Shown in pieces: positions 3,494 through 27,340 of a DNA stretch of 48,239 nucleotides. The position numbers and the translations under genes are program-made. The stretch comes from Ectothiorhodospira haloalkaliphila ATCC 51935 (GTDB lineage Bacteria; Pseudomonadota; Gammaproteobacteria; Ectothiorhodospirales; Ectothiorhodospiraceae), in NCBI RefSeq assembly GCF_000633935.1, contig NZ_KK214998.1, forward strand, positions 146,112 through 194,350. Direction: 5' to 3'. Position 1 is the stretch's first letter, and each line of letters starts with the position of its first letter. Under the pieces are notes generated by a model that saw only the letters and a list, made by a program, of their open reading frames with translations, was not told the DNA's origin and did not search any database.

Positions 3494-6271
3494 CTAGCAA
3501 TTTGGGCAGTCAAGCTTGAAGGGAGGTCCGATACTGGTTTCACGCCCTGGGTTGCGTGGCTTGGCTCCATCGAAGGCTCCCCAGGTGGCCTGCTCCCGAG
3601 GGCGGTGGTTGTAGTCAAGGTCCAGATGGGGTAGGTGATCCACCGGGGGGATGGCTTTGGTGCGGACCAAGGCGTCGGGGCGTGGATAAAGATCCAGTTG
3701 CTCCAGGCGCGGGGTGGCATTGTGCAGGTACGGCACGGCATATTCCAGAGAGGCGGTGAAGTTGTGTTCGGTGTCGATAGAGGCGATGACCTGCAGCGGG
3801 TTAGGAGAGAAAAGGGCATTCCCTGTCACTTTCTGAGTGTAATCCGGGTCGGCATGTGTGATGTGTATGCCGGTGCCAGCGGTGACCAGGGTGTTTTGCA
3901 GGATGTAAACGGCCTTGGGCACGTCGTTGTGGCGCATGATGATCAACCCAGGTCCTCGACTGTTGAAGAACAGGTTGTTGTACAGCGCCACATTGCCCTC
4001 GCCTTGGAACAGGCGCTCGTGGGGGTTTTCGTGAAACAGATTGCCGTAGATCAGATAGCGATCATGCCGGCCTGGCCCCTCGGTTGGCCAGTGTCCCACC
4101 AGCAGATTGGGGCGTGCCGAGGAGTCGCTACTGGCACGTTCGGCCTTGCTGAACAGATTGTGGCGGATGATGGTTTCCCTGGGTTCGGTGGGGATGCCGG
4201 GTAGTCGGTCACGGACATCTTGATGCTTGATCTGCATGTTGTAGCCCAGCGTACGGCGGATGGCGTTATTCTCGATGAGTCCACCAATGAAGGGAGCGCT
4301 ACCGTCGGGGCGGCCCAGGTATAGGCCTGTGCCGATGTCGTGGATGTGGTTGTTCCGGATGGTCCAATCCCAGGCTGAGGCACGGGTAGTGATGCCCGTG
4401 TGGCCTTGTGAGGCGTCGTAGTTTCTGATGGTGAGATGTTCGAGGGTGATGTGGTGGGCGTAGCGGCCGTTGCGTTCCAGGACGACGCCAGCGGCATTGC
4501 GGCCGCGTCCATCCAGAGTCAAATGCCGAACGGTGACGTGTGCACTGCGACTCAGGCTGATGGTGTTTTCCCCATCGCGTGCTTCAAAGATCGCTGGTTC
4601 GCCGCTCTCGGGTCCAGAGATCACGATGGGGGCTTCGGGGGTGCCTTTTATGTTCTGCAAACGCAGGTTACGTGGATAGGTGCCCGAAGACAGTTGGAGA
4701 TGGTCTCCTGGTTGCAGTGCGCGGATCTTATCCCGGTAGTTGTCTGGGTTTGCCTGGATAACTCGACGAGGTAGGGGTTGGGCAAGTGGTTTTTCCTTGC
4801 CACTATGCACCCGAGTCCAGTCCGGAGGCGCTGGATCCTTAGGTGTCGTTAGTGAGGTGAAAAGGGGGCCATGACGTCTTTGAAGCTCCGTCATCAGATC
4901 GCACTCGCCGGCCTTGTACTCAATGGCACCGAGATCCACCGGGTTGGATCGTTCTTGGCCGCAAAAGTCGTGTGTGACATCGTTCGTCCAACTCCCTTGC
5001 GCCACTAAATCCTGTCCATTCAGTAGCCTCAGGTCGCCGGCTTGTGGGGCCAAGAACCACCGATCGAAACGTCCTACGCCCTTCCCAACGGCGGTATCCC
5101 CCAGGCGCTCCAGTGAGGTTTCCAGGCCGTTGATCATGGTTCGGCTCAGGCGTTTGTGCCAGGCGAGAGCCTGAGTAGGGCTGTCAGATTGGCCCTGTTG
5201 GATGCGACTCTGGATCACCGGGAGGTAGCTGGCCTGCGCCAACCACCCAGTGGTTTTGTTGTCTTCGGCCTTAGCCTCACCACCGTCTCGCTCCCAGATG
5301 TTGCCCGTGAGGATATTGTCGAACACTCGCGCCTGGGTTTCCGGAAAGCGTGCCTGGATGCCGAAAGCGTTGTAAATGGTGTTATTGGCGATAAGCGCTT
5401 TTGATGCGCGATTGAGATAAATTCCAGGTTCCTTGGGGCAGTTGAGGATGATGTTGTTGGTCATCCGACCATTGAGTGATTCGGGGCAATCCGTATCGCA
5501 ATTGCCCAGTCCCCTCCGGTCGAAAATGGCGGGGGAAGAGCCCCCGCCCCCGAGGGAGAGACCAACGCGGTGGCCTCCTGTGTGATGCCACTCGCAGATG
5601 ACGAGATTGCGGTCGAAGATAGCACGCTGGGCCCCGCCTTTGACGAAGGCTGCGCTGGTGTTGCGACCGACACGGTGAGGTGCGTGTGCGATGTCGGCAA
5701 TGAAGTTTTCGGTGATTCGCCAATCCTGGCCTCCGATGATGTCGATGGGGACGACAGAAGATCGGGTGTCTCGGGGGTAGTCGTTGATGAAGATGTTACG
5801 TGTGAGCTGCACATGGTCAGGAAATGTCCTGGGATCGCCCTCACCGTTGGCCTTGATGGCGGCGTGAAAGTTCTGGAAGCGGTTGCCTTCTATACGCGCA
5901 TGATCCGCGTCCTGCACTATGTGCAGGGCGTGGTTGGCATTGCGGCTGCCTTGGAAGTCCAGCCCGATGATGTGCCAGTGGGCTCCGTAGATCTTGAATT
6001 GTGTAGTGTGGTCGGTCCAGATGCGGGCGGCACCAGGGATCAGCGATTCTAGAACAATGGGAGCGTCTCGCTCACCTGATTGTCTCAGGGTAATGCTGGG
6101 TAGGAAGTAGTCACCTGGCAGGAGCGTGATGGTGTCCCCTGCTGTGGCGTTCCGCAGGGCCTCTCTAAGATCGCTGGCGTCCTGAACTTCCTGGGATTTG
6201 GCATGGCTCACACCTGCCAGCAGTGATAGGGTCAGCGTTAACACCGGTAGGCTGATACGAAGCACGTCCAT
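3494..6271 (-). CDS. Secreted protein with two right-handed parallel beta-helix domains (polysaccharide lyase-like)
   Basis: The start at the ATG at 6271 gives a clean signal peptide (MDVLRISLPVLTLTLSLLAG, cleavage near SHA); the frame is open to 6382 but the extra 37 residues have no signal character. The mature protein of roughly 900 residues holds two similar halves. Each opens with a cap (DLREALRNATAGDTITLLPG and later DKIRALQPGDHLQLSSGTYP) of the kind seen in chondroitinase-B/PL6-like beta-helices. Each then has Asn-rich coil repeats such as NNIILNC, IANNTIYNA, GNLFHEN and LYNNLFFNS. It probably binds or cleaves a polyuronate-like polysaccharide in the periplasm or outside. Catalytic residues were not assigned. 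The neighbouring glycosyltransferase supports a polysaccharide role. Confidence 0.78.
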   Translation of the reverse strand: MDVLRISLPVLTLTLSLLAGVSHAKSQEVQDASDLREALRNATAGDTITLLPGDYFLPSITLRQSGERDAPIVLESLIPGAARIWTDHTTQFKIYGAHWHIIGLDFQGSRNANHALHIVQDADHARIEGNRFQNFHAAIKANGEGDPRTFPDHVQLTRNIFINDYPRDTRSSVVPIDIIGGQDWRITENFIADIAHAPHRVGRNTSAAFVKGGAQRAIFDRNLVICEWHHTGGHRVGLSLGGGGSSPAIFDRRGLGNCDTDCPESLNGRMTNNIILNCPKEPGIYLNRASKALIANNTIYNAFGIQARFPETQARVFDNILTGNIWERDGGEAKAEDNKTTGWLAQASYLPVIQSRIQQGQSDSPTQALAWHKRLSRTMINGLETSLERLGDTAVGKGVGRFDRWFLAPQAGDLRLLNGQDLVAQGSWTNDVTHDFCGQERSNPVDLGAIEYKAGECDLMTELQRRHGPLFTSLTTPKDPAPPDWTRVHSGKEKPLAQPLPRRVIQANPDNYRDKIRALQPGDHLQLSSGTYPRNLRLQNIKGTPEAPIVISGPESGEPAIFEARDGENTISLSRSAHVTVRHLTLDGRGRNAAGVVLERNGRYAHHITLEHLTIRNYDASQGHTGITTRASAWDWTIRNNHIHDIGTGLYLGRPDGSAPFIGGLIENNAIRRTLGYNMQIKHQDVRDRLPGIPTEPRETIIRHNLFSKAERASSDSSARPNLLVGHWPTEGPGRHDRYLIYGNLFHENPHERLFQGEGNVALYNNLFFNSRGPGLIIMRHNDVPKAVYILQNTLVTAGTGIHITHADPDYTQKVTGNALFSPNPLQVIASIDTEHNFTASLEYAVPYLHNATPRLEQLDLYPRPDALVRTKAIPPVDHLPHLDLDYNHRPREQATWGAFDGAKPRNPGRETSIGPPFKLDCPNC

Positions 6272-6413
6272 TGAGTGAGCTCGCGTACGGGTCGGTGCGA
6301 GAATTGTCCCGGGTGGCGGCATGGAAATCAATTGGAATGTGCCCGCGTCCGTGCGGCATGCTTGGGTATTGTAGTGGCGCATGCATTTTTTCGGGTTTTG
6401 AGGGTGGGTCTCA

Positions 6414-7919
6414 TTGGCTAGAGGGCTCTCGCATCGAACCAGATTCGCGGTTGCAGCATGGCTGTCCTTGCTGGCAGTGCTCTACGCCACCCTGATGCCT
6501 TTCGAGTTCGGAAACCAGGGTGTCGCCCAGGCCTGGTCACACTTTACCAGTCTCACGTTCCCCAAGATGGGTGCCTCGGCGCGTCAGCAGTGGGTGGCGA
6601 ATATCCTGCTTTTCGTGCCGCTGGGGCTGTTCTGGACGGCCTGGCTTTCCGGCTATGTGCGTGGCGTCTGGGGGCATTGCGTGGTGGGGCTGTTCGTGGC
6701 CCTACTGGCTTTGGCGACCACGGCGACAGTTGAGTTCCTTCAGTACTGGTTGCCCCGGCGTGAGCCCTCGCTGCTGGATATGAGTGGCAACCTCAGTGGT
6801 GGCGTGCTGGGGGTGCTGGCCTGGTTCGGGTTGTCGGGGCCGGGGCGGCGGTGGTTGTCGCTATTGCGCCAGGGTGGGCTCGCCGCTCTCTGGTGGGCTT
6901 TGTTGAGTTACACAGTGGTGTACGTGCTGGTCGCTTGGCTGCCTTGGGACTTCCTGTTGTCCTGGCAGGAAGTGTCCGCCAAGCTGGATTCGGATCGGTG
7001 GGGGCTGTGGCGTGCCCCGGTTTCCGAGGCTGATGTGGGCCAGTGGTGGGTGCTTCGCAGCATGGTGGTGATGATCACCGCGCCGGTTGGGATTCTCTTG
7101 GGGTGGTGGCTACAGAGACGAGCGCCTGCGCTCAGAGGCTTTGGGTTGCTGGTTTCTGGCGCGGTGCCGGCATTAGCGTTTGGCCTGTTTGTGGAGTGGG
7201 GGCAGTTCTTGACGGTCTCGGGGGTTGCCGAGGGCGGTTCTGCCTTGTCTCGTGCCGTTGGGATCGTTCTTGGGTTGGCATTCTTCGCGATGCGGCATCA
7301 CCTCGGCCCCGACCAGCTCAGGCATTGGGCTCGTCCGTTGGTGGCCACTTCGGTGGTGCCTTTTTTGTTGCTGTTGGTGCTCATCAACTGGGGCGGTAAG
7401 GGCTTCGCAATGGAAACTGGGTCGGTGCTGGCCAAGCTGGAGTCGTTGCGGTTTTTGCCTTTCTGGTATCACTATACGGTGCCTGAGGCGGTGGCCCTTG
7501 GCAGCCTGATTTTCCATGTGATGATGTATTTGCCTGTGGGCATCGGGGTGTGGCTGTGGCGTTGGGGGGCGAGGGGCATTACACCCCGGCGGGGGTTGTG
7601 GCTGGCGATTGGAGTGGCATTTCTGCTGGCCTTGGTGATGGAGGCGGGTAAGCTGTTCATGGCGGGGTTGAGGCCAGATCCTACTAGCGTATGGATTGCG
7701 GCTGCTGCTGCTTGGTTGGGGTGGCAGGCTTGTGGGGTGGTTTGGTGGGGGTTGCGGGGCCCTATAGAGCGGAATGCGCGCGCGATGGCTCGCGCTGATC
7801 GTTCGCGAGGGCGTGCCGAGGCTTCTCGGCAGCGCTCGGTGGCTTCAGGGAGTACCTATCCCGGGGTGGAGTCGGCGGATGAGGGGTTTGTGCGGGGAGG
7901 CGAGGGTTCCACGCGCTAG
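6414..7919 (+). CDS. VanZ-like multi-pass membrane protein
   Basis: A 501-residue protein starting at TTG (6414), preceded by GAGGGTGGG; the next in-frame ATG would remove the first membrane helix. It carries about ten hydrophobic segments. VanZ-type signatures appear at the N-terminus (YATLMPFEFG, WVANILLFVPLGLFW, TVEFLQYWLPRREPSLLDM) and again in weaker form in the C-terminal half (FHVMMYLPVGIGVWLW, LVMEAGKLF, PDPTSVWIAAAAAWLG). This suggests internal duplication of the VanZ unit. VanZ proteins are common in exopolysaccharide and exosortase loci but their biochemical role is unresolved. The C-terminal 50 residues are Arg/Ser-rich and probably cytoplasmic. It is transcribed divergently from the beta-helix gene. 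Confidence 0.82.
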   Translation: MARGLSHRTRFAVAAWLSLLAVLYATLMPFEFGNQGVAQAWSHFTSLTFPKMGASARQQWVANILLFVPLGLFWTAWLSGYVRGVWGHCVVGLFVALLALATTATVEFLQYWLPRREPSLLDMSGNLSGGVLGVLAWFGLSGPGRRWLSLLRQGGLAALWWALLSYTVVYVLVAWLPWDFLLSWQEVSAKLDSDRWGLWRAPVSEADVGQWWVLRSMVVMITAPVGILLGWWLQRRAPALRGFGLLVSGAVPALAFGLFVEWGQFLTVSGVAEGGSALSRAVGIVLGLAFFAMRHHLGPDQLRHWARPLVATSVVPFLLLLVLINWGGKGFAMETGSVLAKLESLRFLPFWYHYTVPEAVALGSLIFHVMMYLPVGIGVWLWRWGARGITPRRGLWLAIGVAFLLALVMEAGKLFMAGLRPDPTSVWIAAAAAWLGWQACGVVWWGLRGPIERNARAMARADRSRGRAEASRQRSVASGSTYPGVESADEGFVRGGEGSTR

Positions 7920-8152
7920 CGGGCTGCGGGTGTCGGAATCTCTTACGAGATGCTGTGTCCTACTTCAGCACCGAACAGTACCGCTTGGTCGCTTCACGAA
8001 GCCCTCATATGGAGCGGATCTGGTTGGAAAGCGGTGTTATCGGGATTGCTTTCGGGCAACTTATTCGGGATCATCGCAGGCAGAGTGTGTATTGCTGACT
8101 GGATATCCATTGAGAGTGGCGTCAGATTTGTTTACGTTAGGCGTGCTCTCAA

Positions 8153-8168
8153 TGTGATCTGAATCACA
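8153..8168. promoter_or_regulatory. CRP-like palindrome TGTGA-N6-TCACA upstream of the HPr-rel-A cassette
   Basis: The sequence TGTGATCTGAATCACA is a perfect inverted repeat; one more base on each side pairs (ATGTGAT/ATCACAT). It matches the CRP half-site consensus but lies 44 bases upstream of a sigma-54-type promoter. It could therefore be either a CRP-family operator or the upstream activating site of a sigma-54 enhancer-binding protein. The preceding 230 bases after the VanZ gene show no gene. Confidence 0.6.
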
Positions 8169-8211
8169 TCTTCGTTGTGTTGGGCCCTTGTTTTCATGGG
8201 GTTGCATTTTT

Positions 8212-8227
8212 TGGCCTGTTTTTTGCT
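8212..8227 (+). promoter_or_regulatory. Candidate sigma-54 (-24/-12) promoter
   Basis: TGGCCTG, four Ts, then TTGCT: the invariant GG (8213-8214) and GC (8225-8226) are exactly ten bases apart, as required for RpoN promoters. It matches TGGCACG-N4-TTGCW at all but two positions. It lies 140 bases before the ATG at 8367 and would drive the four-gene cassette. Confidence 0.6.
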
Positions 8228-8366
8228 AATTTCAGTTAAGACGTCTTGAGGTGCGGTTAGGCAATGACAGGTCGGCACTGCTCGGCCGAGAAGGCTTTGA
8301 ACATGTGCGCTTCGCTACTGTCCATCTGTGCTGAAGGCTCGAACGCTATATAGAGGCTGTGACTCC

Positions 8367-9062
8367 ATGTCCAATCGAACTCCCATCACTGACACTAACG
8401 AGCAGGCGAGCACCGAGGCTTGCCCTAGAGAAGGGCCGTCCCGGGAGCGAATGGATCGGGGACGCCGGAAGTTTGCCCTCGCGGCTAGCTCGGCACCAGT
8501 TTTGTTTGCGATGGTGAACAAGCCCTTGATGGCGGGGACTTGTGAGGCTGATACGCCCTCGGGTTTTGATTCAGCCAAGGCGAGCGGCCGGAAGGGGGAT
8601 CGAACAACTCTGGAGTGTGGTCGTTCACCTGGTTACTGGGGGAACAAAGGTAAGGGGGGCGGATCCCATGACTCCTTTCTCCTTGATGAGGAGAACACAT
8701 TTCTCCGTGTGTTCGGTTCCAATGACCACATCAGGCAGTTGGGTGGATACGATAAAGACCTTCTCACGATGAGACATGTTGTCGTCAGGCCATATCACAC
8801 GCCGAATCAGTTGAACTTCCGTGACGAGGGCAATCTTGCCAGGGCTTTTGTCGCAGCCTATATGAATGCATTACGCGTTGATAATTATCCATTGAGTACA
8901 TTGGAAGTTAAGGCGATGTGGGAAGCCATTGATGGTGGTGGCAAGTATCAGGTCTCAGCTGGGGTTGAGTGGGGCAAGCCTGAGGTGCTGACCTATCTTT
9001 GGTCGACCTACGAAGACCCTCCTGAGGACAACGAGGACGAGTATTTTGATGTTGAAGATTAA
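8367..9062 (+). CDS. Putative Tat-exported protein with CGRSPGYW motif, first gene of the HPr-rel-A cassette
   Basis: 231 residues from the ATG at 8367; an in-frame GTG at 8328 is less likely. Residues 32-50 (GRRKFALAASSAPVLFAMV) look like a twin-arginine signal after a long polar leader. A Cys-Gly-Arg-Ser-Pro-Gly-Tyr-Trp motif lies at 84-91, followed by Gly/Lys-rich sequence. A C-terminal half has ARAFVAAYMNAL, NYPLSTLEVKAMW and a WG...VLTYLWSTY stretch, then a strongly acidic tail (218-231). I recognise the SPGYW-type architecture of secreted proteobacterial proteins but no enzyme function. Its place before a PqqD-like protein and a kinase makes it the best candidate for the protein this cassette modifies; that is inference. 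Confidence 0.62.
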   Translation: MSNRTPITDTNEQASTEACPREGPSRERMDRGRRKFALAASSAPVLFAMVNKPLMAGTCEADTPSGFDSAKASGRKGDRTTLECGRSPGYWGNKGKGGGSHDSFLLDEENTFLRVFGSNDHIRQLGGYDKDLLTMRHVVVRPYHTPNQLNFRDEGNLARAFVAAYMNALRVDNYPLSTLEVKAMWEAIDGGGKYQVSAGVEWGKPEVLTYLWSTYEDPPEDNEDEYFDVED

Positions 9063-9125
9063 TCGGGCGCTCGTTGTCCCGGTTGTGATGAGACGGTTAA
9101 TGGGAAACTTTGGTCGCTACAGCTC

Positions 9126-9470
9126 TTGTGGTCAAGTGTGTCCTTGAGTGATCTGAAGGCGGATCTTGTGACGCAAGCTTTGTGTCCTGGGTGGTATTTG
9201 GATTCTTCTCGGCTTGTTATTCGTTACTGGGCGGATGGTGTTGCGGTTTTCCATCTGGAGTCGGGTGACATTTATGTCCTCTCGGCGTTATGTGGGGGAC
9301 TGCTGAGTGAAATGGACTCGGTAAACGGCGTGTTGCGTTTGTCTGGTGAGTTGGTTGAGCGCTTGAGTCAAAACTACACGGGTGCACCTCAGGGAGAGGA
9401 TTTGGGGCAACTTGTCCTGGCTTCATTGGAAAGCATGGAGCGCCTTGCAATCATTAAGAGAGTGGTATAG
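9126..9470 (+). CDS. HPr-rel-A system PqqD-family peptide chaperone
   Basis: A 114-residue protein (start uncertain: TTG at 9126, GTG at 9138 or TTG at 9144; no ATG is suitably placed). The segment RYWADGVAVFHLESGDIYVL followed by LLSEM is the beta-rich core of the PqqD fold as found in the variant that travels with HprK-related kinase A. PqqD domains bind the leader of a peptide or protein and present it to a modifying enzyme. It lies 63 bases after the candidate substrate and 38 bases before the kinase start codon, so the genes probably form one operon. Confidence 0.72.
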   Translation: MWSSVSLSDLKADLVTQALCPGWYLDSSRLVIRYWADGVAVFHLESGDIYVLSALCGGLLSEMDSVNGVLRLSGELVERLSQNYTGAPQGEDLGQLVLASLESMERLAIIKRVV

Positions 9471-9508
9471 ACATTCCTAACACACCACTTCTTCGGGTCG
9501 GGGACTTC

Positions 9509-10405
9509 TTGCCGGCTAATTTCCGAAAGCTCGTTGCTGGATGTGGGGTCGTCATCCAGGCTGGGTCGCTTTCCTTTCGCCTGCGTAGCAATGTTAGACT
9601 GGTCGCGGATGGTGTTCACCATTTGTATCGTTATCATCCTGTAGTCACTTATGGATTAGCCGATTTTTCCGTTCAGGTGACGCCGCCACGCTCTCCCCGA
9701 CGATGGTTAGGCCGACAGGTGAACTTTCGGCATAATGGCGCTGCTACTTTCCTGCCTCTGCCATACGCCCAGGCTTTGCCGCTACTCGAGTGGGGTCTCA
9801 ATTGGTGCGTGTATGAGCATGTGCACGACCGATTGGTGCTTCATGCCGCAGTGGTGGAAAGTGATGCGCGGGCCTTGATTATTCCGGCTCCGCCCGGTTC
9901 GGGCAAGAGTACCTTGGTTGCTGGCCTCTGCTATTCAGGTTGGCGGCTTCTCTCCGATGAGTTGGCGCTGCTGAAGCCGTCTAGCGGTGAGGTGGAAGGC
10001 TTATGCCGACCCATCAGCCTCAAGAATGCTTCTATCGGCGTCATGCGGGAATATGCTGGTGCAGAGCCTTTCTCTCCCACGGTATCGGACACCACAAAGG
10101 GTGATGTGGCGCTGATGCGTCCACCGCTGGATAGCGTGGAGAAAGCGGCAGTGCCTGCGAGGCCGTTTGGGGTTGTGTTCCCTTTGTTCTCTGCAGGAGC
10201 GGCACCTTCCATGACAGAATTGGGACCTGCTTCGGCATTCAGTCAGCTGCTGGAAAGCGCTTTTAATTTGTCGGTGTTGCGCGAGGATGGCTTCCACGTG
10301 TTGGCTGACTTGGTAGAGCATTGCCGGTGTTTTCAGATCAGGTATGGATCCTTGGCTGATGGGATGGCGTTGGTTCAAGAGATTCACGAATCAGGAAAGG
10401 TGTGA
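9509..10405 (+). CDS. HprK-related kinase A
   Basis: About 298 residues from a TTG at 9509. The P-loop is IPAPPGSGKSTLV (Lys about 133), preceded by LHAAVVE (His about 112), the counterpart of the conserved His region of HPr kinase/phosphorylase, and followed by WRLLSDELALL (Asp150-Glu151) where HprK has its Walker-B-like acidic pair. HprK phosphorylates a serine of HPr; this branch lacks an HPr partner gene nearby and its target is not established. In-frame sequence just upstream (IPNTPLLRVGDF) also looks like family sequence but has no ATG, GTG or TTG, so the true start may be an unusual codon. The stop overlaps the next start. Confidence 0.82.
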   Translation: MPANFRKLVAGCGVVIQAGSLSFRLRSNVRLVADGVHHLYRYHPVVTYGLADFSVQVTPPRSPRRWLGRQVNFRHNGAATFLPLPYAQALPLLEWGLNWCVYEHVHDRLVLHAAVVESDARALIIPAPPGSGKSTLVAGLCYSGWRLLSDELALLKPSSGEVEGLCRPISLKNASIGVMREYAGAEPFSPTVSDTTKGDVALMRPPLDSVEKAAVPARPFGVVFPLFSAGAAPSMTELGPASAFSQLLESAFNLSVLREDGFHVLADLVEHCRCFQIRYGSLADGMALVQEIHESGKV

Positions 10406-11505
10406 TGGGCGAGGCGGGGGAATCGCTGCTCTTTTGTGTGCTCAAGGCCCCAGACTTGGCGTGTGATCTCGATCTCAATGAGTGGGATCTGCTGATTCGT
10501 CAAGCGCGGGTAAGTCGTTTGCTCGGCAGTCTGGCCATTGGGATCAATGAGGCTGGCGTGTGGCAGCAGATCTCGGAGGGGCCGCGGCGCCACCTGGATT
10601 GGGCACGCAGGATCTCCCAAACCTACCATGCTGAGCTTGAGTGGGAACTGTCGTGTATCGAAGACGCATTGGGAGGGTTGGGTGCTCCTGTCGTGTTATT
10701 GAAAGGTGCTGCCTATCATGTGGAGGGTCTGAAGGTTTCGGCCGGCAGGATGTTCAGCGATGTGGATATTCTAGTGGATCGAGGACGCTTAAACGCTGTC
10801 GAGGCATGCTTGATGATGCGCGGGTGGGTGAATTCCCACCACGACCCTTATGACCAGCGTTACTATCGAGAGTGGATGCATGAGTTGCCCCCCATGCAGC
10901 ATATCAAGCGCGGAACGACCTTGGATGTGCACCACTCTATCTTGCCGCCGACGGCCCGATTGAAAACGGATCCGCAGCGTCTGATCGACGCTTCGGTTAA
11001 CGTGGACAGGGGCTTATTTCGCGTGCTGATGCCAGAGGACATGTTCCTGCACAGTGCCACGCATCTTTTCTTTTCGGAGGGCGAGATGATGCATGGTTCT
11101 CGTGACCTCTGGGATCTATATCGCATGGCCGAGGAGTTCGGTCATGACGATTTCTGGGAAAGAATTCAAAGTCGAGCGATGGAATTGGGTTTGACGGAGC
11201 CCTTGGTGCTGGCGGTTCATTTCCTGGACAGCTTGCTGGAGGCGCCACTGCCTGAAGATCTGGTGACTTGGGCGGAAGCGTCGTTTCCAAATGGGCTTGG
11301 AGGGATGTTATTGCGAAGTTCCCTTCAATCGGGGCTGGCCGTTCGTGATAGCCACGAGAAGACGCTGGCGGAGACACTGAAGGAATGGTTCTTGATCGTT
11401 CGTGGGCATCAAGAGAAGATGCCAACGCCCCTGCTGATGAAGCATTTGAGCCGCAAGGCTTGGTATGGGGTGTTCCCCAAAGACCCCGTCGCGGGGCGGA
11501 GGTAA
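10402..11505 (+). CDS. Nucleotidyltransferase-fold protein (NTP_transf_5 type) of the HPr-rel-A cassette
   Basis: 367 residues from GTG at 10402, or 366 from the ATG at 10405; both overlap the kinase stop. The core is VVLLKGAAY followed by GRMFSDVDILVDR, in which Ser119-Asp120-x-Asp122 gives the paired acidic residues of a polymerase-beta-like nucleotidyltransferase. An LDVHHSI strand then supplies a third possible acidic residue. The rest is helical. Members of this family often accompany HprK-related kinases and exosortase-type polysaccharide genes. It may transfer a nucleotide or act on the cassette's substrate, but no reaction is established. The tight overlap with the kinase supports joint function. 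Confidence 0.75.
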   Translation: MMGEAGESLLFCVLKAPDLACDLDLNEWDLLIRQARVSRLLGSLAIGINEAGVWQQISEGPRRHLDWARRISQTYHAELEWELSCIEDALGGLGAPVVLLKGAAYHVEGLKVSAGRMFSDVDILVDRGRLNAVEACLMMRGWVNSHHDPYDQRYYREWMHELPPMQHIKRGTTLDVHHSILPPTARLKTDPQRLIDASVNVDRGLFRVLMPEDMFLHSATHLFFSEGEMMHGSRDLWDLYRMAEEFGHDDFWERIQSRAMELGLTEPLVLAVHFLDSLLEAPLPEDLVTWAEASFPNGLGGMLLRSSLQSGLAVRDSHEKTLAETLKEWFLIVRGHQEKMPTPLLMKHLSRKAWYGVFPKDPVAGRR

Positions 11506-11541
11506 TCGATTCGATTCACCTCGCTTGGAGGACTTTCGGAG

Positions 11542-11722
11542 CTTCAGGCCAGTGATGTCACCGGGCGGTGAGCGTTCTCCATGATCCCCGTCTCCCCTCC
11601 GTAGCCGCCTATGCCTGAAAATGTAATCTTACCAGCGGCCTTTAGACCTTGGCCGACATGATTAGTGGGGCCTATTGCTGTGTGGACAAGACGCCCCATA
11701 TCCACCGGTTGGTGACGGAGCT
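11542..11722 (+). pseudogene. 5' remnant of an AAA-ATPase-like/PD-(D/E)XK gene
   Basis: The stretch repeats the leader of the complete copies (TTCAGGCCAGTGATGTCACC is the counterpart of CTCAGGCCAGTGATATCATC at 13090) and then their first codons. After ATGCCTGAAA a frameshift is needed to reach LADMISGAYCCVDKTPHIHR and LVTEL, which match residues about 14-38 of the second complete copy. The homology stops abruptly after GTGACGGAG. It lies in a 650-base stretch with no intact gene; the rest holds the palindrome at 11884 and the upstream region of the PEP-CTERM gene. Confidence 0.8.
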
Positions 11723-11883
11723 ATCAGCGCTCCTGCCCCCCATTTCGCTGTAATCGCTGCACCTGATGCTCTATTCGTGGGTAGGTGGGGAAACTGGTAG
11801 GCGCACCGAGCCGGCGTGGGCGCCCTGGTTTTCTCGGGGTTCTTGATGGGTTGTCGGTGATTCTTACGATACTGTGGTCATAA

Positions 11884-11897
11884 TGAGATCAGTCTCA
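11884..11897. promoter_or_regulatory. Palindrome similar to the one at 8153
   Basis: TGAGATCAGTCTCA has 5-bp arms around TCAG and is followed by CA. Aligned with the 8153 site it keeps AATG-GATC-G--TCACA (14 of 20 positions). It lies 260 bases before the PEP-CTERM gene. Possible shared regulator site; no protein is assigned. Confidence 0.4.
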
Positions 11898-12078
11898 CAA
11901 AACACCGGGCGGGCTACGTCTTGAGCATCCTGAAGGGTGGGGCTCATCTGAAGTTTTTTGGAAAATTCTGTGATTGGTGTCTCAAAAACGAAAACTGATG
12001 GCGGTATGGTTTACAAGCGCATCCGGGTGTGGATCGTCTATTCTTTTAAGTGATTGTAATTTGGAGGAAATATAAGGC

Positions 12079-12094
12079 TGGCATGGTTTGTGTA
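12079..12094 (+). promoter_or_regulatory. Degenerate sigma-54-like element before the PEP-CTERM gene
   Basis: TGGCATG-GTTT-GTGTA has the -24 GG and correct spacing but GT instead of GC at -12. It would start transcription about 50 bases before the ATG at 12157. PEP-CTERM genes of other bacteria are known to be RpoN-dependent, but this match is weak. Confidence 0.25.
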
Positions 12095-12156
12095 TTTGCC
12101 CATTATGGGCGCGTCCTCCCTGGATGTGCCAAGTCTAACGGGTGATGAGGCTTCCC

Positions 12157-12969
12157 ATGCGAAAGATTCTGATTAGGTTTATGGTCCTGGTGCTTGCAGG
12201 CATGGGGGCGGGTAGCTTGCAGGCTGCTCCTATCGTCGGGAACTTATCTGTCGAATTCAAAGGCGTACCCCAAGGTTTTCAAGCTGGCTCCACGACGGGC
12301 GATATCCATGAGCCAAGGTTAAAGACACACGCCGCTGAGGATGGTTGGGTCAGTGGCGTACATGCCGGTATGTATCGGATGACCCTTGGCACCGGTCGTG
12401 ACAGCGTCCCGGAGGAGGATGTCTTTTGGGGGCAAGATGGTGATTTCAATGCGTTTTGCATCCAGACATGGCAAGTGCTCGCTAGCAGCCAGAATCTGCG
12501 GAATGATTATTCGCTTTGGTCTTTGAAAGGTTACCTGGGCTCTTCCATCCACGGTTCGGATGAGCAGTGGGCAGAAGCGACCTTTTCTGAGATATCTGCT
12601 CTTTTTGCCCGGAGCAATTTGGTCGATGAGGATGCTGGGTCGATTGCTCTAGGGGCAACAGCTGAAACGGATGCGGCTTTTCAGTTGGCCCTCTGGGCAA
12701 TCGTCAACGAGTGGGAAGTCAGTGACGCTGACAAGCTTTCATTTTCGGGTTTTGGTGATGCGGTGCACAATGATGTTGAACTGTGGGTTGGCGAAACCCG
12801 AAACGCGAATCAAGTTGCTGCGAGTCTGGACTTCTATGTGCTGAGTTCGGCGACCTCACAAAACCTGCTGGTGTGGAAGACTGCAACCGCAACCGAGGTG
12901 CCTCTGCCCGCCACCCTGTGGCTGATGCTGGCGGGCATCCTGGGAGTCGGGCTGGCCAGGAGGTCATAG
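12157..12969 (+). CDS. Secreted protein with VPLPA/PEP-CTERM sorting signal
   Basis: 270 residues from the ATG at 12157, which has GATGAGG six bases upstream; the GTG/ATG at 12142-12145 are rejected. The N-terminal signal peptide is MRKILIRFMVLVLAGMGAG with cleavage near LQAAP. The C-terminus is a complete sorting signal: motif VPLPA, a hydrophobic helix (TLWLMLAGILGVGL) and a basic end ARRS. Exosortases recognise such signals, cleave them and attach the protein to the surface or to exopolysaccharide. The middle domain (DFNAFCIQTWQ, AAFQLALWAIVNEW) resembles that of many PEP-CTERM proteins with no known enzyme activity. No exosortase is in the window, though two exosortase-A-associated genes are (21962 and 24942). 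Confidence 0.9.
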   Translation: MRKILIRFMVLVLAGMGAGSLQAAPIVGNLSVEFKGVPQGFQAGSTTGDIHEPRLKTHAAEDGWVSGVHAGMYRMTLGTGRDSVPEEDVFWGQDGDFNAFCIQTWQVLASSQNLRNDYSLWSLKGYLGSSIHGSDEQWAEATFSEISALFARSNLVDEDAGSIALGATAETDAAFQLALWAIVNEWEVSDADKLSFSGFGDAVHNDVELWVGETRNANQVAASLDFYVLSSATSQNLLVWKTATATEVPLPATLWLMLAGILGVGLARRS

Positions 12970-13043
12970 GCGGCACTAGGGATGCCTGGGGGGCGTTGGC
13001 GATCCTGGATCGGCTCGATGCCGGGGATCAGCGGAAGAGTTAG
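12969..13043 (+). pseudogene. Tail of a ribbon-helix-helix antitoxin gene
   Basis: The bases encode LAILDRLDAGDQRKS and a stop, one residue different from the end of the complete antitoxin at 16456-16683. The first part is degenerate but alignable (GGCGGCACTAGGGATG against GGCGGCGACAGGGAATG). It is a by-product of the R1/R2 duplication. Confidence 0.8.
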
Positions 13044-13155
13044 ACGGGGGCCTGTGTTGCAGCTGTGTCTGGGGTGGCGGCGGGCTGAACCTCTCAGGCC
13101 AGTGATATCATCGGGCGGCAAGCGCTCTCCCCGATCCTTGCCCCCGGAGCCGCCC

Positions 13156-14718
13156 ATGCCCCAGAAACGCAATCTCCCCATTGGTATCCAGGCGTTCGAC
13201 AAGCTCCGCCGGGGCGGCCACTACTATGTGGACAAGACACCGCACCTGCTTCGGTTGGTGAGTGAAGGCGGGTCTTTTTTCCTCTCCCGTCCCCGCCGTT
13301 TTGGCAAGAGCCTGCTGCTGGATACCCTCAGGTGCCTGTTCGAGGGTCGTCAGGATCTGTTCGAGGGGTTGTTCATCCGGGAGCGATGGGACTGGCAGGT
13401 GCGTCATCCGGTGATTCGCCTGAGCTTTGCCGACGGGGTGCTGACCACGCGGGAGGCGCTGGATGTCCACATTGATGAGTTGTTGCGGGCAGAGGCCTCG
13501 CGGCTTGAGGTGGCTCTGACGAATACCAGCATTCCGGGCCGTTTCCGGGAGTTGATCCAGCAAGCCCATGCCGTTCATGGCCAGCGGGCGGTGGTGCTGA
13601 TCGATGAGTATGACAAGCCGATCCTGGATAACATCACCGAGCCGGAGCGGGCGCGGGCGGTTCGGGAAGGGCTGAAGAATCTGTATTCGGTGCTCAAGGA
13701 CGCCGATCCCCATCTGCGTTTCTGCCTGCTCACAGGGGTGTCCAAGTTCAGCAAGGTGAGTCTTTTCTCGGGCCTGAATAATCTCAACGACATCACCCTG
13801 GACGAGCCTTACGCGGCCATCTGTGGTTATACGGATGAGGACGTGGATACGGTGTTTGCGGCGGAGTTGCCGGGGCTGGATCGGGCGGAGATCCGGGACT
13901 GGTACAACGGCTACCGCTGGGGTGGGGCGGATACGCCCTCGGTGTATAACCCCTTTGATCTGTTGCTGTTGTTCCAGAAGCGCCGGTTCGCGCCTTACTG
14001 GTTTGAGTCGGCTACACCCACTTTCCTGGTGGATCTGTTGAGCGAGCGCGGGGTGTTCACGCCGCGGCTGGAGGCGATGCAGACGGAGGCGGAGTTGCTG
14101 GGGCGGTTCGACGTGGATGGGATTGCCACCGAGGCGCTGTTGTTCCAGACGGGGTATCTCACCGTGCATGCGGTGGAGGAGCCCATGACGGGGTATTGGC
14201 TCTACACCCTCGGGTATCCCAATCGTGAGGTGGAATCGAGCCTGAACCAGGCGTTGCTGCCGGCCTTGGGTGTGCCGGAATCGCCACGGCAGCGGTTGAG
14301 TCTGTTCAGGATTTTGCAGGCCCATGACCTGGATGCCCTGGAGGTTCACTTCAAGGCGCTGTTCGCCTCCTTGCCCCATGACTGGTGTCGGAACAATCCC
14401 ATTGCCCGGTATGAGGGGCATTATGCCAGTGTGTTTTACAGCCACTTTGCGGCCTTGGGGTTGCGGATTTCGGTGGAGGATTCGTCCCATATGGGCAAGG
14501 TGGACATGGCCGTGGAGTTCGGTGGCCATGTGTACGTGTTCGAGTTCAAGGTGGTGGAGCAGGTGCCCCAGGGGCGGGCGCTGCAGCAGATCAAGGATAA
14601 GGGCTATGCGGACAAGTACCGGGGGCGGGGGCAGCCGATCCATCTGATTGGCGTGGAGTTTTCCCGGGAGCAGCGTCAGGTGGTGGGGTTTGAGGTGGAG
14701 ACGGTGCCAGCAACCTGA
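13156..14718 (+). CDS. AAA-ATPase-like / PD-(D/E)XK nuclease-domain protein, copy 1
   Basis: 520 residues from the ATG at 13156, with GGAG six bases upstream. An N-terminal AAA-ATPase-like domain (PF09820 type) has the variant P-loop SRPRRFGKS (44-52), Walker B VVLIDEYDK (146-154) and TGVSKFSKVSLFSGLNN (193-209). The C-terminus is a PDDEXK_9-type domain with GKVD (447-450, Asp450) and FEFK (462-465, Glu463, Lys465). The family is widespread and often multicopy in bacteria; its function is not established, and nucleic acid cleavage is only implied by the fold. Residues 74-144 (RERWDWQVRHPVIRLSFADG onward) differ strongly from copies 2 and 3, while residues after about 255 are almost identical in all three. 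Confidence 0.9.
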   Translation: MPQKRNLPIGIQAFDKLRRGGHYYVDKTPHLLRLVSEGGSFFLSRPRRFGKSLLLDTLRCLFEGRQDLFEGLFIRERWDWQVRHPVIRLSFADGVLTTREALDVHIDELLRAEASRLEVALTNTSIPGRFRELIQQAHAVHGQRAVVLIDEYDKPILDNITEPERARAVREGLKNLYSVLKDADPHLRFCLLTGVSKFSKVSLFSGLNNLNDITLDEPYAAICGYTDEDVDTVFAAELPGLDRAEIRDWYNGYRWGGADTPSVYNPFDLLLLFQKRRFAPYWFESATPTFLVDLLSERGVFTPRLEAMQTEAELLGRFDVDGIATEALLFQTGYLTVHAVEEPMTGYWLYTLGYPNREVESSLNQALLPALGVPESPRQRLSLFRILQAHDLDALEVHFKALFASLPHDWCRNNPIARYEGHYASVFYSHFAALGLRISVEDSSHMGKVDMAVEFGGHVYVFEFKVVEQVPQGRALQQIKDKGYADKYRGRGQPIHLIGVEFSREQRQVVGFEVETVPAT

Positions 14719-16683: not shown

Positions 16684-16809
16684 ACGGAGGCTTGTGTTGC
16701 AGGTGTGTCTGGGGTGGCAACCTTCAGCGGTCTACGCACTGAACGTCTCAGGCCAGTGCTATCATCGGGCGGCAAGCGCTCACCCTGATCCTTGCCCCCG
16801 GAGCCGTCC

Positions 16810-18375
16810 ATGCCCCAGAAACGTAATCTCCCCATTGGCATCCAGACCTTCGCCGACATGGTCAGCGGGGCCTATTACTATGTGGACAAGACGCCCCACA
16901 TTCACCGGCTGGTGACGGAGGGGCGTTACTATTTTCTCTCCCGTCCCCGCCGTTTTGGCAAGAGCCTGTTGCTGGATACCCTTCGCTGCCTGTTCGAGGG
17001 GCGCGAAGAGTTGTTCCGCGGGCTGTATGTCGAATCCCGCTGGGACTGGAGTGTGCGTTATCCGGTGGTGATCCTGGATTTCGGGGGCGGGGTGGCGGCC
17101 ACGCGCGAGGCGCTGGATGCGCGGATCCGTGATCAGTTGCATTGGAACCGTGAGCGGCTGGGCGTGAGCCTGGATCGCCAGACGGATATCCCGGGGGAGT
17201 TTGAGGCGCTGATCCGCGGGGCGCATGCCCGTTCTGGTGAGCGGGTGGTGGTGCTGATCGATGAATATGACAAGCCGATTCTGGATAATATCACCGAGCC
17301 GGAGCGGGCTCGGGTGGTTCGGGAGGGGCTGAAAAACCTCTACTCGGTGCTGAAGACGGTGGATGCCCACCTACGGTTCTGCCTGCTTACGGGGGTGTCC
17401 AAGTTCAGCAAGGTGAGTCTGTTCTCGGGGCTGAATAATCTGCGAGACATCACGTTGTCACCGGCATATTCCGATATCTGCGGTTATACGGAGGCGGATG
17501 TGGATAGCGTGTTCTCGCCGGAGTTGTCTGGTCTGGACCGGCAGGAAATCCGTGCCTGGTACAACGGCTATCGCTGGGGCGGGGTGGACACGCCGTCAGT
17601 CTATAATCCGTTCGATCTGTTGCTGCTGTTCCAGGAGCGACGTTTTGCGCCGTACTGGTTTGAGTCGGCTACGCCGACGTTTCTGGTGGATCTGCTGAGT
17701 GAGCGCGGGGTGTTCACGCCCCGGCTGGATGCGATGCAGACGGAGGCGGAGTTGCTGGGGCGGTTCGACGTGGATGGGATTGCCACCGAGGCGTTGTTGT
17801 TCCAGACGGGGTATCTCACGGTGCATGCGGTGGAGGAGCCCATGACGGGGTATTGGCTCTACACCCTCGGGTATCCCAATCGTGAGGTGGAGTCGAGCCT
17901 GAACCAGGCGTTGCTGCCGGCCCTGGGTGTGCCGGAATCGCCACGGCAGCGGTTGAGTTTGTTCAGGGTTCTGCAGGCCCATGACCTGGATGCCTTGGAG
18001 GTTCACTTCAAGGCGCTGTTCGCCTCCTTGCCCCATGACTGGTACCGGAACAATCCCATTGCCCGGTATGAGGGGCATTATGCCAGTGTGTTCTACAGCC
18101 ACTTTGCGGCGCTGGGGCTGCAGATCTCAGTGGAGGATTCGTCCCACATGGGCAAAGTGGACATGGCCGTGGAGTTCGGTGGCCATATGTACTTGTTCGA
18201 GTTCAAGGTGGTGGAACAGGTACCCCAGGGGCGGGCGCTGCAGCAGATCAAGGATAAGGGCTATGCGGACAAGTATCGCAGGCGGGGGCAGCCGATCCAT
18301 CTGATTGGCGTGGAGTTTTCCCGGGAGCAGCGTCAGGTGGTGGCGTTTGAGGTGGAGACGGTGCCAGCAACCTGA
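16810..18375 (+). CDS. AAA-ATPase-like / PD-(D/E)XK nuclease-domain protein, copy 2
   Basis: 521 residues from the ATG at 16810, with GGAG upstream. Same architecture as copy 1: SRPRRFGKS P-loop, VVLIDEYDK Walker B, and C-terminal GKVD...FEFK nuclease core. Its residues 13-40 (TFADMVSGAYYYVDKTPHIH) are a distinct version, shared only with the remnant at 11542. Residues 73-143 (YVESRWDWSVRYPVVILDFG onward) match copy 3. Residues 210-260 (RDITLSPAYSDICGYTEADV) are unique to this copy. The final 260 residues are nearly identical to copies 1 and 3. It follows the orphan antitoxin by 126 bases. Confidence 0.9.
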   Translation: MPQKRNLPIGIQTFADMVSGAYYYVDKTPHIHRLVTEGRYYFLSRPRRFGKSLLLDTLRCLFEGREELFRGLYVESRWDWSVRYPVVILDFGGGVAATREALDARIRDQLHWNRERLGVSLDRQTDIPGEFEALIRGAHARSGERVVVLIDEYDKPILDNITEPERARVVREGLKNLYSVLKTVDAHLRFCLLTGVSKFSKVSLFSGLNNLRDITLSPAYSDICGYTEADVDSVFSPELSGLDRQEIRAWYNGYRWGGVDTPSVYNPFDLLLLFQERRFAPYWFESATPTFLVDLLSERGVFTPRLDAMQTEAELLGRFDVDGIATEALLFQTGYLTVHAVEEPMTGYWLYTLGYPNREVESSLNQALLPALGVPESPRQRLSLFRVLQAHDLDALEVHFKALFASLPHDWYRNNPIARYEGHYASVFYSHFAALGLQISVEDSSHMGKVDMAVEFGGHMYLFEFKVVEQVPQGRALQQIKDKGYADKYRRRGQPIHLIGVEFSREQRQVVAFEVETVPAT

Positions 18376-19696: not shown

Positions 19697-19961
19697 AGGT
19701 CATACCTGGGAAGCATATGAGGCCATGCGTGAGAACGACAAGCGATTACACAAGGCCCTGTGCAAATTGCTCAAGGAAATGCTGCGAACAGAAGATCCGT
19801 CCTCTGGCCTGGGAAAACCTGAACCACTCAAGCACAACCTCTCTGGCCTATGGTCCAGGCGAATATCACAGCAAGATCGTTTGATCTATCGATTCGACGA
19901 CAAGTCCATTTATATCTTCGCTATTGGTGGTCACTACGATCGTCCGGTCACCCCCGTATAG
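19677..19961 (+). CDS. yoeB: YoeB/Txe-family ribosome-dependent mRNA endonuclease toxin
   Basis: 94 residues from the ATG at 19677. Family features include MRSLVFEGHTWEAYEAMREN, LLKEMLRTEDPSSGLGKPEP, LSGLWSRRISQQDRLIYR and the C-terminal GGHYDRPV. The conserved catalytic set Glu (in KPEPLKH), Arg, His and Tyr (GGHY) is present. YoeB binds the ribosomal A site and cuts mRNA. The overlap with yefM ensures coupled translation. Copy 3 of the AAA/PD-(D/E)XK gene follows after 43 bases. Confidence 0.93.
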   Translation: MRSLVFEGHTWEAYEAMRENDKRLHKALCKLLKEMLRTEDPSSGLGKPEPLKHNLSGLWSRRISQQDRLIYRFDDKSIYIFAIGGHYDRPVTPV

Positions 19962-20004
19962 CCAGACCTCACGCGGTGCTGGCATGATCCGCCCGGAGCT
20001 GCCC

Positions 20005-21561
20005 ATGCCCCAGAAACGCAATCTCCCCATTGGTATCCAGGCGCTCGAGAAGATCCGCCGGGGTGACCATTACTATGTGGACAAGACACCGCACCTGCTT
20101 CGGTTGGTGAGTGAGGGTGGGTATTTTTTCCTCTCTCGTCCCCGCCGTTTTGGCAAGAGCCTGCTGCTGGATACCTTGCGTTGCCTGTTCGAGGGGCGGG
20201 AGGACCTGTTCCGGGGGCTGTACGTGGAGTCCCGCTGGGACTGGAGTGTGCGTTATCCGGTGATCACCCTGGATTTCGGGGGCGGGGTGGTGACCACTCG
20301 CGAAGGGCTGGATGCGCGGATCCGTGATCAACTGCATTGGAACCGCGAGCGGCTGGGCGTGAGTCTGGACCGCCAGACGGATATCCCGGGAGAGTTTGAG
20401 GCGCTGATCCGCGGGGCGCATGCCCGTTCTGGTGAGCGGGTGGTGGTGCTGATCGATGAATACGACAAGCCGATTCTGGACAACATCACGGAGCCGGAAC
20501 AGGCTCGCGAGCTCCGTGAGGGCCTGAAAAACCTCTACTCGGTGCTGAAGACGGTGGATGCCCACCTGAGGTTCTGCCTGCTCACAGGGGTGTCCAAGTT
20601 CAGCAAGGTGAGTCTGTTCTCGGGGCTGAATAATCTCAACGACATCACCCTGGACGAGCCTTACGCGGCCATCTGTGGTTATACGGATGAGGACGTGGAT
20701 ACGGTGTTTGCGGCGGAGTTGCCGGGGCTGGATCGGGCGGAGATCCGGGACTGGTATAACGGCTACCGGTGGGGTGGGGCGGATACGCCCTCGGTGTATA
20801 ACCCCTTTGATCTGTTGCTGTTGTTCCAGAAGCGCCGGTTCGCGCCTTACTGGTTTGAGTCGGCTACACCCACTTTCCTGGTGGATCTGCTGAGCGAGCG
20901 CGGGGTGTTCACGCCCAGGCTGGAGGCGATGCAGACGGAGGCGGAGTTGCTGGGGCGGTTCGACGTGGATGGGATTGCCACTGAGGCGCTATTGTTCCAG
21001 ACGGGGTATCTCACGGTGCATGCGGTGGAGGAGCCCATGACGGGGTATTGGCTCTACACCCTGGGTTATCCCAACCGGGAGGTGGAGTCGAGCCTGAATC
21101 AGGCGTTGTTGCCGGCCCTGGGGGTGGCTGAGTCACCCCGGCAGCGGTTGAGTCTGTTCAGGATTTTGCAGGCCCATGACCTGGATGCCCTGGAGGTTCA
21201 CTTCAAGGCGCTGTTTGCTTCCTTGCCCCATGACTGGTATCGGAATAATCCCATTGCCCGGTATGAGGGGCATTATGCCAGTGTGTTCTACAGCCACTTT
21301 GCGGCTTTGGGGCTGCGGATTTCGGTGGAGGATTCTTCCCACATGGGCAAGGTGGACATGGCCGTGGAGTTCGGTGGCCATGTGTATGTGTTCGAGTTCA
21401 AGGTGGTGGAACAGGTACCCCAGGGGCGGGCGCTGCAGCAGATCAAGGATAAGGGCTATGCGGATAAGTACCGGGGGCGGGGTCAGCCGATCCATCTGAT
21501 TGGCGTGGAGTTTTCCCGGGAGCAGCGTCAGGTGGTGGCGTTTGAGGTGGAGACGGCGTGA
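20005..21561 (+). CDS. AAA-ATPase-like / PD-(D/E)XK nuclease-domain protein, copy 3
   Basis: 518 residues from the ATG at 20005, with GGAG upstream. It is a mosaic: residues 10-40 (IRRGDHYYVDKTPHLLRLVS) follow copy 1. Residues 73-143 (VESRWDWSVRYPVITLDFGG onward, to ALIRGAHARSGER) follow copy 2. Residues 205-260 (LNDITLDEPYAAICGYTDED) follow copy 1 exactly. The last 260 residues are common to all. It ends FEVETA, three residues shorter than the other copies (ETVPAT), and lacks their 3' flank. Its leader also differs from that of copies 1 and 2. The P-loop, Walker B and nuclease residues are intact. Confidence 0.9.
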   Translation: MPQKRNLPIGIQALEKIRRGDHYYVDKTPHLLRLVSEGGYFFLSRPRRFGKSLLLDTLRCLFEGREDLFRGLYVESRWDWSVRYPVITLDFGGGVVTTREGLDARIRDQLHWNRERLGVSLDRQTDIPGEFEALIRGAHARSGERVVVLIDEYDKPILDNITEPEQARELREGLKNLYSVLKTVDAHLRFCLLTGVSKFSKVSLFSGLNNLNDITLDEPYAAICGYTDEDVDTVFAAELPGLDRAEIRDWYNGYRWGGADTPSVYNPFDLLLLFQKRRFAPYWFESATPTFLVDLLSERGVFTPRLEAMQTEAELLGRFDVDGIATEALLFQTGYLTVHAVEEPMTGYWLYTLGYPNREVESSLNQALLPALGVAESPRQRLSLFRILQAHDLDALEVHFKALFASLPHDWYRNNPIARYEGHYASVFYSHFAALGLRISVEDSSHMGKVDMAVEFGGHVYVFEFKVVEQVPQGRALQQIKDKGYADKYRGRGQPIHLIGVEFSREQRQVVAFEVETA

Positions 21562-27254: not shown

Positions 27255-27340
27255 AGACTCGGAGCTCAGCGTGTGGAGAGGCTTCAGGTCGTTTCGTTAA
27301 GCAGACGGACATTTGCCCGTCAGGGCGTGGGAGGTTTGGG

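Follow-up and report, generated by a model that had tools for sequence, protein, structure and literature searches.

A twin-arginine-signal protein as the probable client of the HPr-rel-A gene set in Ectothiorhodospira haloalkaliphila and its relatives

The DNA considered here, called the window throughout, is a stretch of 48,239 nucleotides from contig NZ_KK214998.1 of Ectothiorhodospira haloalkaliphila ATCC 51935 (positions 146,112 to 194,350, forward strand), and it contains a gene set of the HPr-rel-A type: a PqqD-like protein, an HprK-related kinase and an adjacent nucleotidyltransferase-fold protein, the last of which we take to be a regular member of the set. To our knowledge, no reaction has been established for HPr-rel-A. 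Here, we examine a fourth gene, directly ahead of the other three, which encodes a protein with a twin-arginine signal, and conclude that it is very probably the client, that is the candidate substrate, of the system. The four-gene unit is real: an open reading frame (ORF) analysis of the window places all four ORFs on the forward strand at the coordinates of a preliminary description made from the sequence alone (Table 1), with a gap of 63 bases between the first two, a gap of 38 bases between the next two and a 4-base overlap of the last two.

The evidence that carries this conclusion is the constancy with which the client gene travels with the kinase cassette. The window's family set comprises 47 genomes with 24 kinase loci; the kinase exceeds its family cut-off in 24 genomes, the client is matched in 10, and all 10 client matches adjoin an over-cut-off kinase. 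In the remaining family cassettes the same slot is occupied by a protein that has diverged in sequence but keeps the architecture, with a twin-arginine signal followed by a C-x(2,4)-S-G-x-x-S-like motif. A 15-sequence kinase alignment used as a query on a named genome collection confirmed at least 548 relatives, from which the best 80 loci were kept; these include loci of Thioalkalivibrio, Halorhodospira, Thiobacillus, Massilia, Duganella, Sulfuricella and others. Together with the 24 family loci they amount to 104, of which 103 were matched by a profile made from the N-terminal portion of the client, and the removal of 6 duplicates left 98 distinct kinase loci. Simple sequence patterns had recovered the client in 64 of the 80 loci (in some of them in false frames only), the PqqD-like gene in 63 of 98 and the nucleotidyltransferase gene in 55 of 98, and profiles were used in their place. 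By profile, the nucleotidyltransferase is present in all 98 loci and the complete set of four genes in 97; in the 98th (L099) the twin-arginine protein falls under the profile threshold.

Because some of the seeds of the first client profile came from the loci under test, a hold-out profile was built with the 24 family loci as training material. It matched 72 of the 74 other loci, missing L055 and L099, and its 73 matches among 11,616 reading frames all lay inside cassettes, one of them in the second, divergent cassette of locus L114. A cruder test, for an ORF with a twin-arginine pair plus a hydrophobic stretch, was positive ahead of 93 of 97 cassettes and of 47 of 54 cassettes from a phylum-wide sample, versus 125 of 476 control long frames of the same loci, a background that is high because false frames were also counted. 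Each locus has a single client except L114, which has two clients for two cassettes. Four loci (L098, L113, L115 and L117) have the client after the nucleotidyltransferase gene, so that the linkage survives rearrangement.

The preliminary description had staked its proposal on homologues of the first protein being found beside the other genes, and in a class-wide sample of 369 genomes this is what was observed. Strong client matches (E ≤ 1e-10) occur in 30 genomes (31 matches), and in all 30 the contig also encodes a kinase over the TIGR04352 cut-off, no more than about 2 kb from one match. The kinase exceeds its cut-off in 41 genomes of this sample. Among the 11 that have no strong client, four (G103, G152, G330 and G366) show a weak client match adjoining the kinase, interrupted by stop codons within the matched stretch in G103; six (G061, G137, G179, G258, G347 and G358) have, by eye, a different twin-arginine-signal protein at the kinase; and in G303 the kinase locus is cut by a contig end. 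Client matches weaker than 1e-10 were the only ones in 13 genomes, among them the four with a weak match at the kinase. Two more, G329 and G229, have twin-arginine-signal proteins close to a different kinase (with a TIGR04352 score of 81 bits in the former, HprK-like by eye in the latter), and the other seven gave short or interrupted matches with E from 5e-5 to 1e-3.

That the first gene is nothing but an unrelated neighbor is in our opinion scarcely credible. Operon structure is not settled by promoter or terminator signals, and we found no evidence that would support such an accidental adjacency; against it stand the co-occurrence counts in the 30 genomes and the 97 loci and the hold-out result. 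The candidate promoter that had been placed ahead of the first gene found no support, since a consensus scan of positions 7900 to 12200 gave no sigma-70-like site on the forward strand and 2 sites overall versus 2.7 expected from shuffled sequence.

Two loci of unusual architecture were noted in passing. L114 carries two HPr-rel-A cassettes back to back and divergently oriented, each with its own client, and in L088 the genes run PqqD, nucleotidyltransferase, client, kinase and again nucleotidyltransferase, an arrangement that looks as though one client served two cassettes.

The family assignments of the kinase and of the fourth protein were borne out by profile search, and both matches lie well over their cut-offs (Table 1). 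In its catalytic residues the kinase resembles those of lasso-peptide clusters, for which a catalytic His-Lys-Asp-Asp set is given in the parts of PMC9266682 drawn on here: H, K and the first D are retained, and the final catalytic residue is E here and D there. The H, GKS and DE motifs are present in all 98 loci (97 by pattern, 1 by eye) and in 56 of 57 loci of the phylum-wide sample (53 by pattern, 3 by eye), the match in the 57th ending before the motif. In a profile alignment of the nucleotidyltransferases from the 98 loci, one of them gapped, no exchange occurs among the 97 sequences at the K, the G, the R, the two H or the second position of D-x-D; the first D and the third D are each kept in 96 of 97, the exceptions being one E and one N, respectively. 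This alignment supersedes an earlier count of 55/55, which was partly circular because the pattern used required KG and [DN]xD. Judged by these residues, both enzymes look intact.

The second protein is a more delicate case. Its designation as PqqD-like stands as regards the fold: an AF2 model (pLDDT 87.9) has as its best PDB matches TbiB1 (5v1u/5v1v) and TfuB1 (6jx3), a profile search also reached TfuB1 (E 3e-4), and the protein thus models as a lasso-type leader-binding (RRE) fold. As regards the family, 46 of 47 PqqD-like proteins (the window protein and 46 of the 62 relatives collected) match TIGR04353 at E ≤ 0.01, and on its sequence the window protein is best described as a divergent relative of PqqD_rel_X.

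Table 1. Features of the four-gene unit; positions are those of the window
Feature	Position	Strand	Evidence
Client (candidate substrate), class 1, Tat-signal, 231 aa	8367..9062	+	Profile match; no Pfam/NCBIfam family
Twin-arginine signal region of client, residues 30-57 (R33/R34 at 8463-8468)	8454..8537	+	R33, R34 invariant, 81/81
Ser65, first of the two candidate phosphosites; variants occur of the motif C-x(2,4)-S-[GA]-x-x-S	8559..8561	+	81/81; 45/45 in second alignment
Ser69, second candidate phosphosite	8571..8573	+	81/81; 45/45 in second alignment
CGRSPGYW motif of client, residues 84-91	8616..8639	+	C84 75/81, P88 69/81, W91 72/81
PqqD-like protein, predicted RRE fold (alternative start GTG 9138 possible)	9126..9470	+	TIGR04353 20.6 bits (cut-off 35); predicted fold
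HprK-related kinase A (HprK_rel_A)	9509..10405	+	TIGR04352 326.4 bits (NCBIfam cut-off 200)
Kinase P-loop GSGKST	9896..9913	+	GKS kept across loci
Kinase DE pair	9956..9961	+	DE kept across loci
NTP_transf_5 nucleotidyltransferase (K 10702, D-x-D 10759-10767, third D 10924)	10402..11505	+	PF14907 176.8 bits (Pfam cut-off 31.2)

The client itself has no Pfam or NCBIfam match at E ≤ 0.1 and no match in a plasmid collection, and 13 of its homologues (5 compared with NCBIfam, 8 others with Pfam and NCBIfam) gave no credible family, the four weak matches (E 0.0037 to 0.097) being all far under the cut-offs. There is no sequence relative in the PDB. The predicted model has a domain at about residues 80-215 that is mostly confident, and a structure search with the mature part found no PDB match (best E 2.9). 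The RRKF signal and the CGRSPGYW motif are both present as first described, and the latter is missing from some clients, for example that of L028. A twin-arginine motif followed by a hydrophobic stretch is the sequence hallmark of a substrate of the twin-arginine translocation (Tat) pathway, and a tatC gene is present in the organism's own genome. The second residue after the arginine pair is L in 44, F in 33, V in 2, I in 1 and A in 1 of 81 non-redundant homologues.

In the alignment of these 81 homologues only four columns contain a single letter (window numbering): R33, R34, S65 and S69. The next most conserved residues are C59 (78/81), N167 (77/81), C84 (75/81), F112 (73/81) and W91 (72/81). 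A second alignment, of 45 members with 21-53% identity to the window protein, has as its invariant residues the same four and N167. The pattern used to collect the seeds included the arginine pair and S65 and left S69 free, and members found by profile only retain both serines. The preliminary description had pointed to serines and threonines near the signal as possible targets; its SSAP site within the signal is not conserved, and of its TCEADTPSG segment the serine of TPSG, which is S65, is found in 81 of 81 sequences and the threonines are not conserved.

Two serines of this constancy invite the interpretation that they are modified, and serine phosphorylation of the client is, judged from these sequences, rather probable. 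It is quite unlikely, in our view, that S65 and S69 are instead structural or processing residues, for instance in a turn beside the cleavage site of the signal or at the start of a helix spanning residues 64-73, with any modification lying elsewhere. S65 does stand at the start of a short helix predicted with modest confidence, the serines have C59 on one side and C84 on the other, an arrangement like that of a motif closed by a disulphide, and N167, a residue of the folded domain, is nearly invariant too. Against such a role, S65 and S69 alone, outside the arginine pair, are identical in all 81 sequences, and the exchange of serine for threonine, which structure alone would often permit, occurs at neither position in any of the 81 homologues.

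For the four-gene system as a whole, with the first gene as its dedicated client, we propose a working that we consider on balance the probable one. The client would be synthesized in the cytoplasm, where the PqqD-like protein, to judge from its fold, would hold it and present its leader or signal region in the manner of lasso B1 proteins. The HprK-related kinase would then phosphorylate S65, S69 or both, just behind the signal, as its catalytic residues and the invariance of the serines suggest. The nucleotidyltransferase-fold enzyme may next place a nucleotidyl or sugar group on the phosphate, by analogy with PsmN and PsmK; such a further decoration we regard as a tentative addition to the scheme. 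The modified client would finally leave by the Tat pathway, as the invariant arginine pair and the tatC gene suggest. Export by Tat rather than by Sec would suit a client whose modification consumes cytoplasmic nucleoside triphosphates and has to precede export, and it would allow such a modification to be brought to the cell surface.

The two enzymes might also act on separate residues, the nucleotidyltransferase for example modifying a tyrosine, serine or threonine of the folded domain independently of any phosphorylation. Its active-site residues are retained in 96 or 97 of 97 sequences, and phosphorylation and nucleotidylation had indeed been offered at the outset as alternatives; we nevertheless think this arrangement rather improbable, since in pseudomycoidin, a precedent with both gene types, the proposal is that the second enzyme, PsmN, works on the phosphate which the first, PsmK, has introduced (PMC9266682, in the parts drawn on here). 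A different possibility, which we consider unlikely, is that the client is a co-exported partner: the kinase and the nucleotidyltransferase would modify a small molecule or the end of a polysaccharide, and the client would bind or carry it through Tat. The position of the cassette among exosortase and exopolysaccharide genes in part of the relatives, the exosortase of the organism's own genome and the general knowledge that Tat classically exports cofactor-loaded proteins would all agree with this. In opposition, a peptide is what one would expect an RRE protein like lasso B1 to present, those HprK relatives whose substrate is known phosphorylate a serine of proteins or peptides, and two serines are invariant in a client family that is otherwise very variable.

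The proposal that the client is the cassette's own substrate can be viewed on a larger scale in the phylum-wide sample of 398 genomes, 61 of which have an over-cut-off kinase; all 61 neighborhoods were inspected. Clients homologous to that of the window (class 1, E ≤ 1e-6) occur in 10 genomes, beside the kinase in 9 and on another contig in one (G520). Two loci, L208 and L217, are cut by contig ends, which leaves 59 evaluable, and a twin-arginine-signal protein of one type or another precedes the kinase in 52 of these (assigned by script and partly by eye; short in L206). Besides class 1, two further types could be distinguished. Type-2 clients (28 loci) have RRRKLLKGLAAGVPAIVTLQSGAALA-like signals and a C-terminal C-W-x-S-[FLI] in 28 of 28; L219 and L223, assigned to this type by the script, are actually class 1 and were removed from the count. 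Type-3 clients (8 aligned loci) end in G-F-T-C-[FY]-A-S-L in 8 of 8. Since the serines of class 1 and the Cys-x-x-Ser of types 2 and 3 differ, a site of modification, should there be one, does not correspond to a single conserved motif. In a FastTree phylogeny of a subsample of 102 kinases, in which 41 of the 99 inner branches are weakly supported, client types 1-3 require 2 changes over 88 rows, compared with at least 25 in 100 shuffles; with the categories "other" and "none" also counted there are 11 changes versus a shuffled mean of 46.

A number of these observations weigh against the scheme of a dedicated, serine-modified client. No twin-arginine client lies near the kinase in 7 of the 59 evaluable loci (L171, L176, L185, L187, L195, L202 and L209), and these client-less loci are scattered on the kinase tree, where their 7 rows need 6 changes. 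L185, one of the seven, belongs to genome G520, whose class-1-like gene is the one on another contig. In the class-wide sample the 31st strong match (G340:C20, locus L158) lies away from any kinase, the cassette of that genome being elsewhere. The clustering of client types on the tree fits a joint inheritance of client and kinase, and plain descent too. The invariance of S65 and S69 is limited to class 1; the other types are without the motif, and the Cys-x-x-Ser of types 2 and 3 is at the opposite end of the protein from the class-1 serines. No conserved RRE-binding motif was seen by eye ahead of the arginine pair, and the window's PqqD-like protein scores under the cut-off of TIGR04353. Finally, among 12 listed HprK-like kinases under the TIGR04352 cut-off, one of which (L230) has no upstream sequence, small twin-arginine-signal proteins accompany 4 of 11 (L160, L229, L231 and L233); the client rule, though not wholly absent there, is thus limited to the TIGR04352 family. 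L225 and L227 gave further test-positive ORFs that look unlike signals.

Compared with described systems, the cassette is closest to HPr-rel-A as defined by TIGR04352 and TIGR04353, with which it shares a kinase over cut-off, a PqqD family protein and an NTP_transf_5 neighbor; the two NCBIfam models name a kinase and a peptide chaperone, and the client, here a regular fourth part, is matched by no NCBIfam model. The tailoring of the lasso peptides paeninodin and pseudomycoidin (PadeB1, PadeK/ThcoK/PsmK and PsmN) offers what seems a close analogy, with an RRE protein, a serine kinase and a partner annotated as a nucleotidyltransferase (PMC9266682, same parts); PadeB1 binds the leader, according to the portion of PMC5067487 drawn on here. 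Unlike lasso clusters, the cassette has no match to the cyclase or B2 protease families among the 7 window proteins scanned, and its client is not a short precursor; it is a full-size signal-bearing protein, with the class-1 candidate serines N-terminal. HprK, the HPr kinase/phosphorylase, shares the P-loop kinase core (weak profile match to 1jb1/2qmh, E 0.047), but the window kinase scores 12.4 against a cut-off of 240 for TIGR00679, and there is no HPr-like client. Like Tat precursors, the clients have an [S/T]-R-R-x-[F/L]-like signal with the arginine pair in 81 of 81 and a hydrophobic stretch; unlike them, the client has no match to a known cofactor-binding domain, and its mature fold is the one noted above to be without PDB counterpart.

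In the open-licence literature, which our search covered, no paper was found on HPr-rel-A, TIGR04352 or TIGR04353, on PqqD, HprK and a nucleotidyltransferase together, on twin-arginine signals with an RRE and a kinase, or on an exosortase with PqqD and a kinase. PqqD in combination with an HPr kinase and a precursor led to three papers on lasso peptides. The main text of the RRE-Finder paper (PMC7470986), in the portion covered, mentions neither "kinase" nor "twin-arginine". The name HPr-rel-A is already known; what appears new within that literature is the family of clients, the pair of serines invariant in it, and the replacement of the client across groups. The client with its two invariant serines is the best candidate so far for the target of the three enzymes, and a named client turns the question of what HPr-rel-A does into a problem of mass spectrometry. 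If the proposal is true, the tailoring by RRE-guided kinases that is familiar from lasso peptides extends to full-size Tat-exported proteins across the Pseudomonadota, and a phosphoserine-linked modification of the cell surface becomes possible, of a kind that we have not met in any description.

The surroundings of the cassettes suggest, weakly, a role at the surface or in the matrix. Among 61 long loci, protein clusters named from one representative each comprise an XrtA chain-length determinant (17), a PEP-CTERM response regulator (24) and an exosortase acyltransferase (8), and an exosortase is encoded in the organism's own genome (G000:C4:106794). On the most far-reaching view, HPr-rel-A would be a widespread pathway that makes phosphoserine-linked glycans or nucleotidyl groups in the cytoplasm on Tat-exported surface proteins, with an RRE reading the signal region and, in each cassette, one dedicated and rapidly evolving client, its mature domain having been exchanged on at least two occasions; it would also link the exported protein to the exopolysaccharide/exosortase matrix, among whose genes the cassette lies in some of the species. 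We advance this as a speculation that is, in its entirety, unlikely.

About 640 bases behind the cassette of the window lies a gene (12142-12969, forward strand) for a secreted protein with a VPLPA/PEP-CTERM-like tail that scores just under the cut-offs (22 versus 25.35 bits and 17.2 versus 20.7 bits). At locus L158 the second class-1-like client, on the other contig, has by eye a PEP-CTERM-like gene behind it. An HtrA/DegP-like serine protease is encoded at 27251-28123 (forward strand) and at L093:3218-4087, and an HtrA/DegP-like protein cluster is found at a median of about 2.7 kb ahead of the kinase in 18 of the 61 long loci.

Short twin-arginine-signal proteins (about 80-105 amino acids, RRxFLKKxAxYxxPAxxxL-like) lie ahead of sub-cut-off HprK-like kinases at L159, L160, L229 and L231, which are possibly sister systems; L160 has three such proteins in a row, and L159 has, by eye, a PqqD-like frame. 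The four sub-cut-off loci counted above, L233 among them, may likewise be sister systems. At L227 (G168:C423) two twin-arginine-signal peptides with long threonine runs lie on the strand opposite the HprK-like kinase.

Elsewhere in the window, three long paralogous ORFs on the forward strand (12982-14718, 16792-18375 and 19924-21561) have C-terminal halves that are by eye near-identical and the look of P-loop ATPases or nucleases. Upstream of the cassette, a large beta-helix/chondroitinase-B-like protein (3494-6382, reverse strand) is divergent from a VanZ-family membrane protein (6414-7919, forward strand), with a glycosyltransferase further out from this pair.

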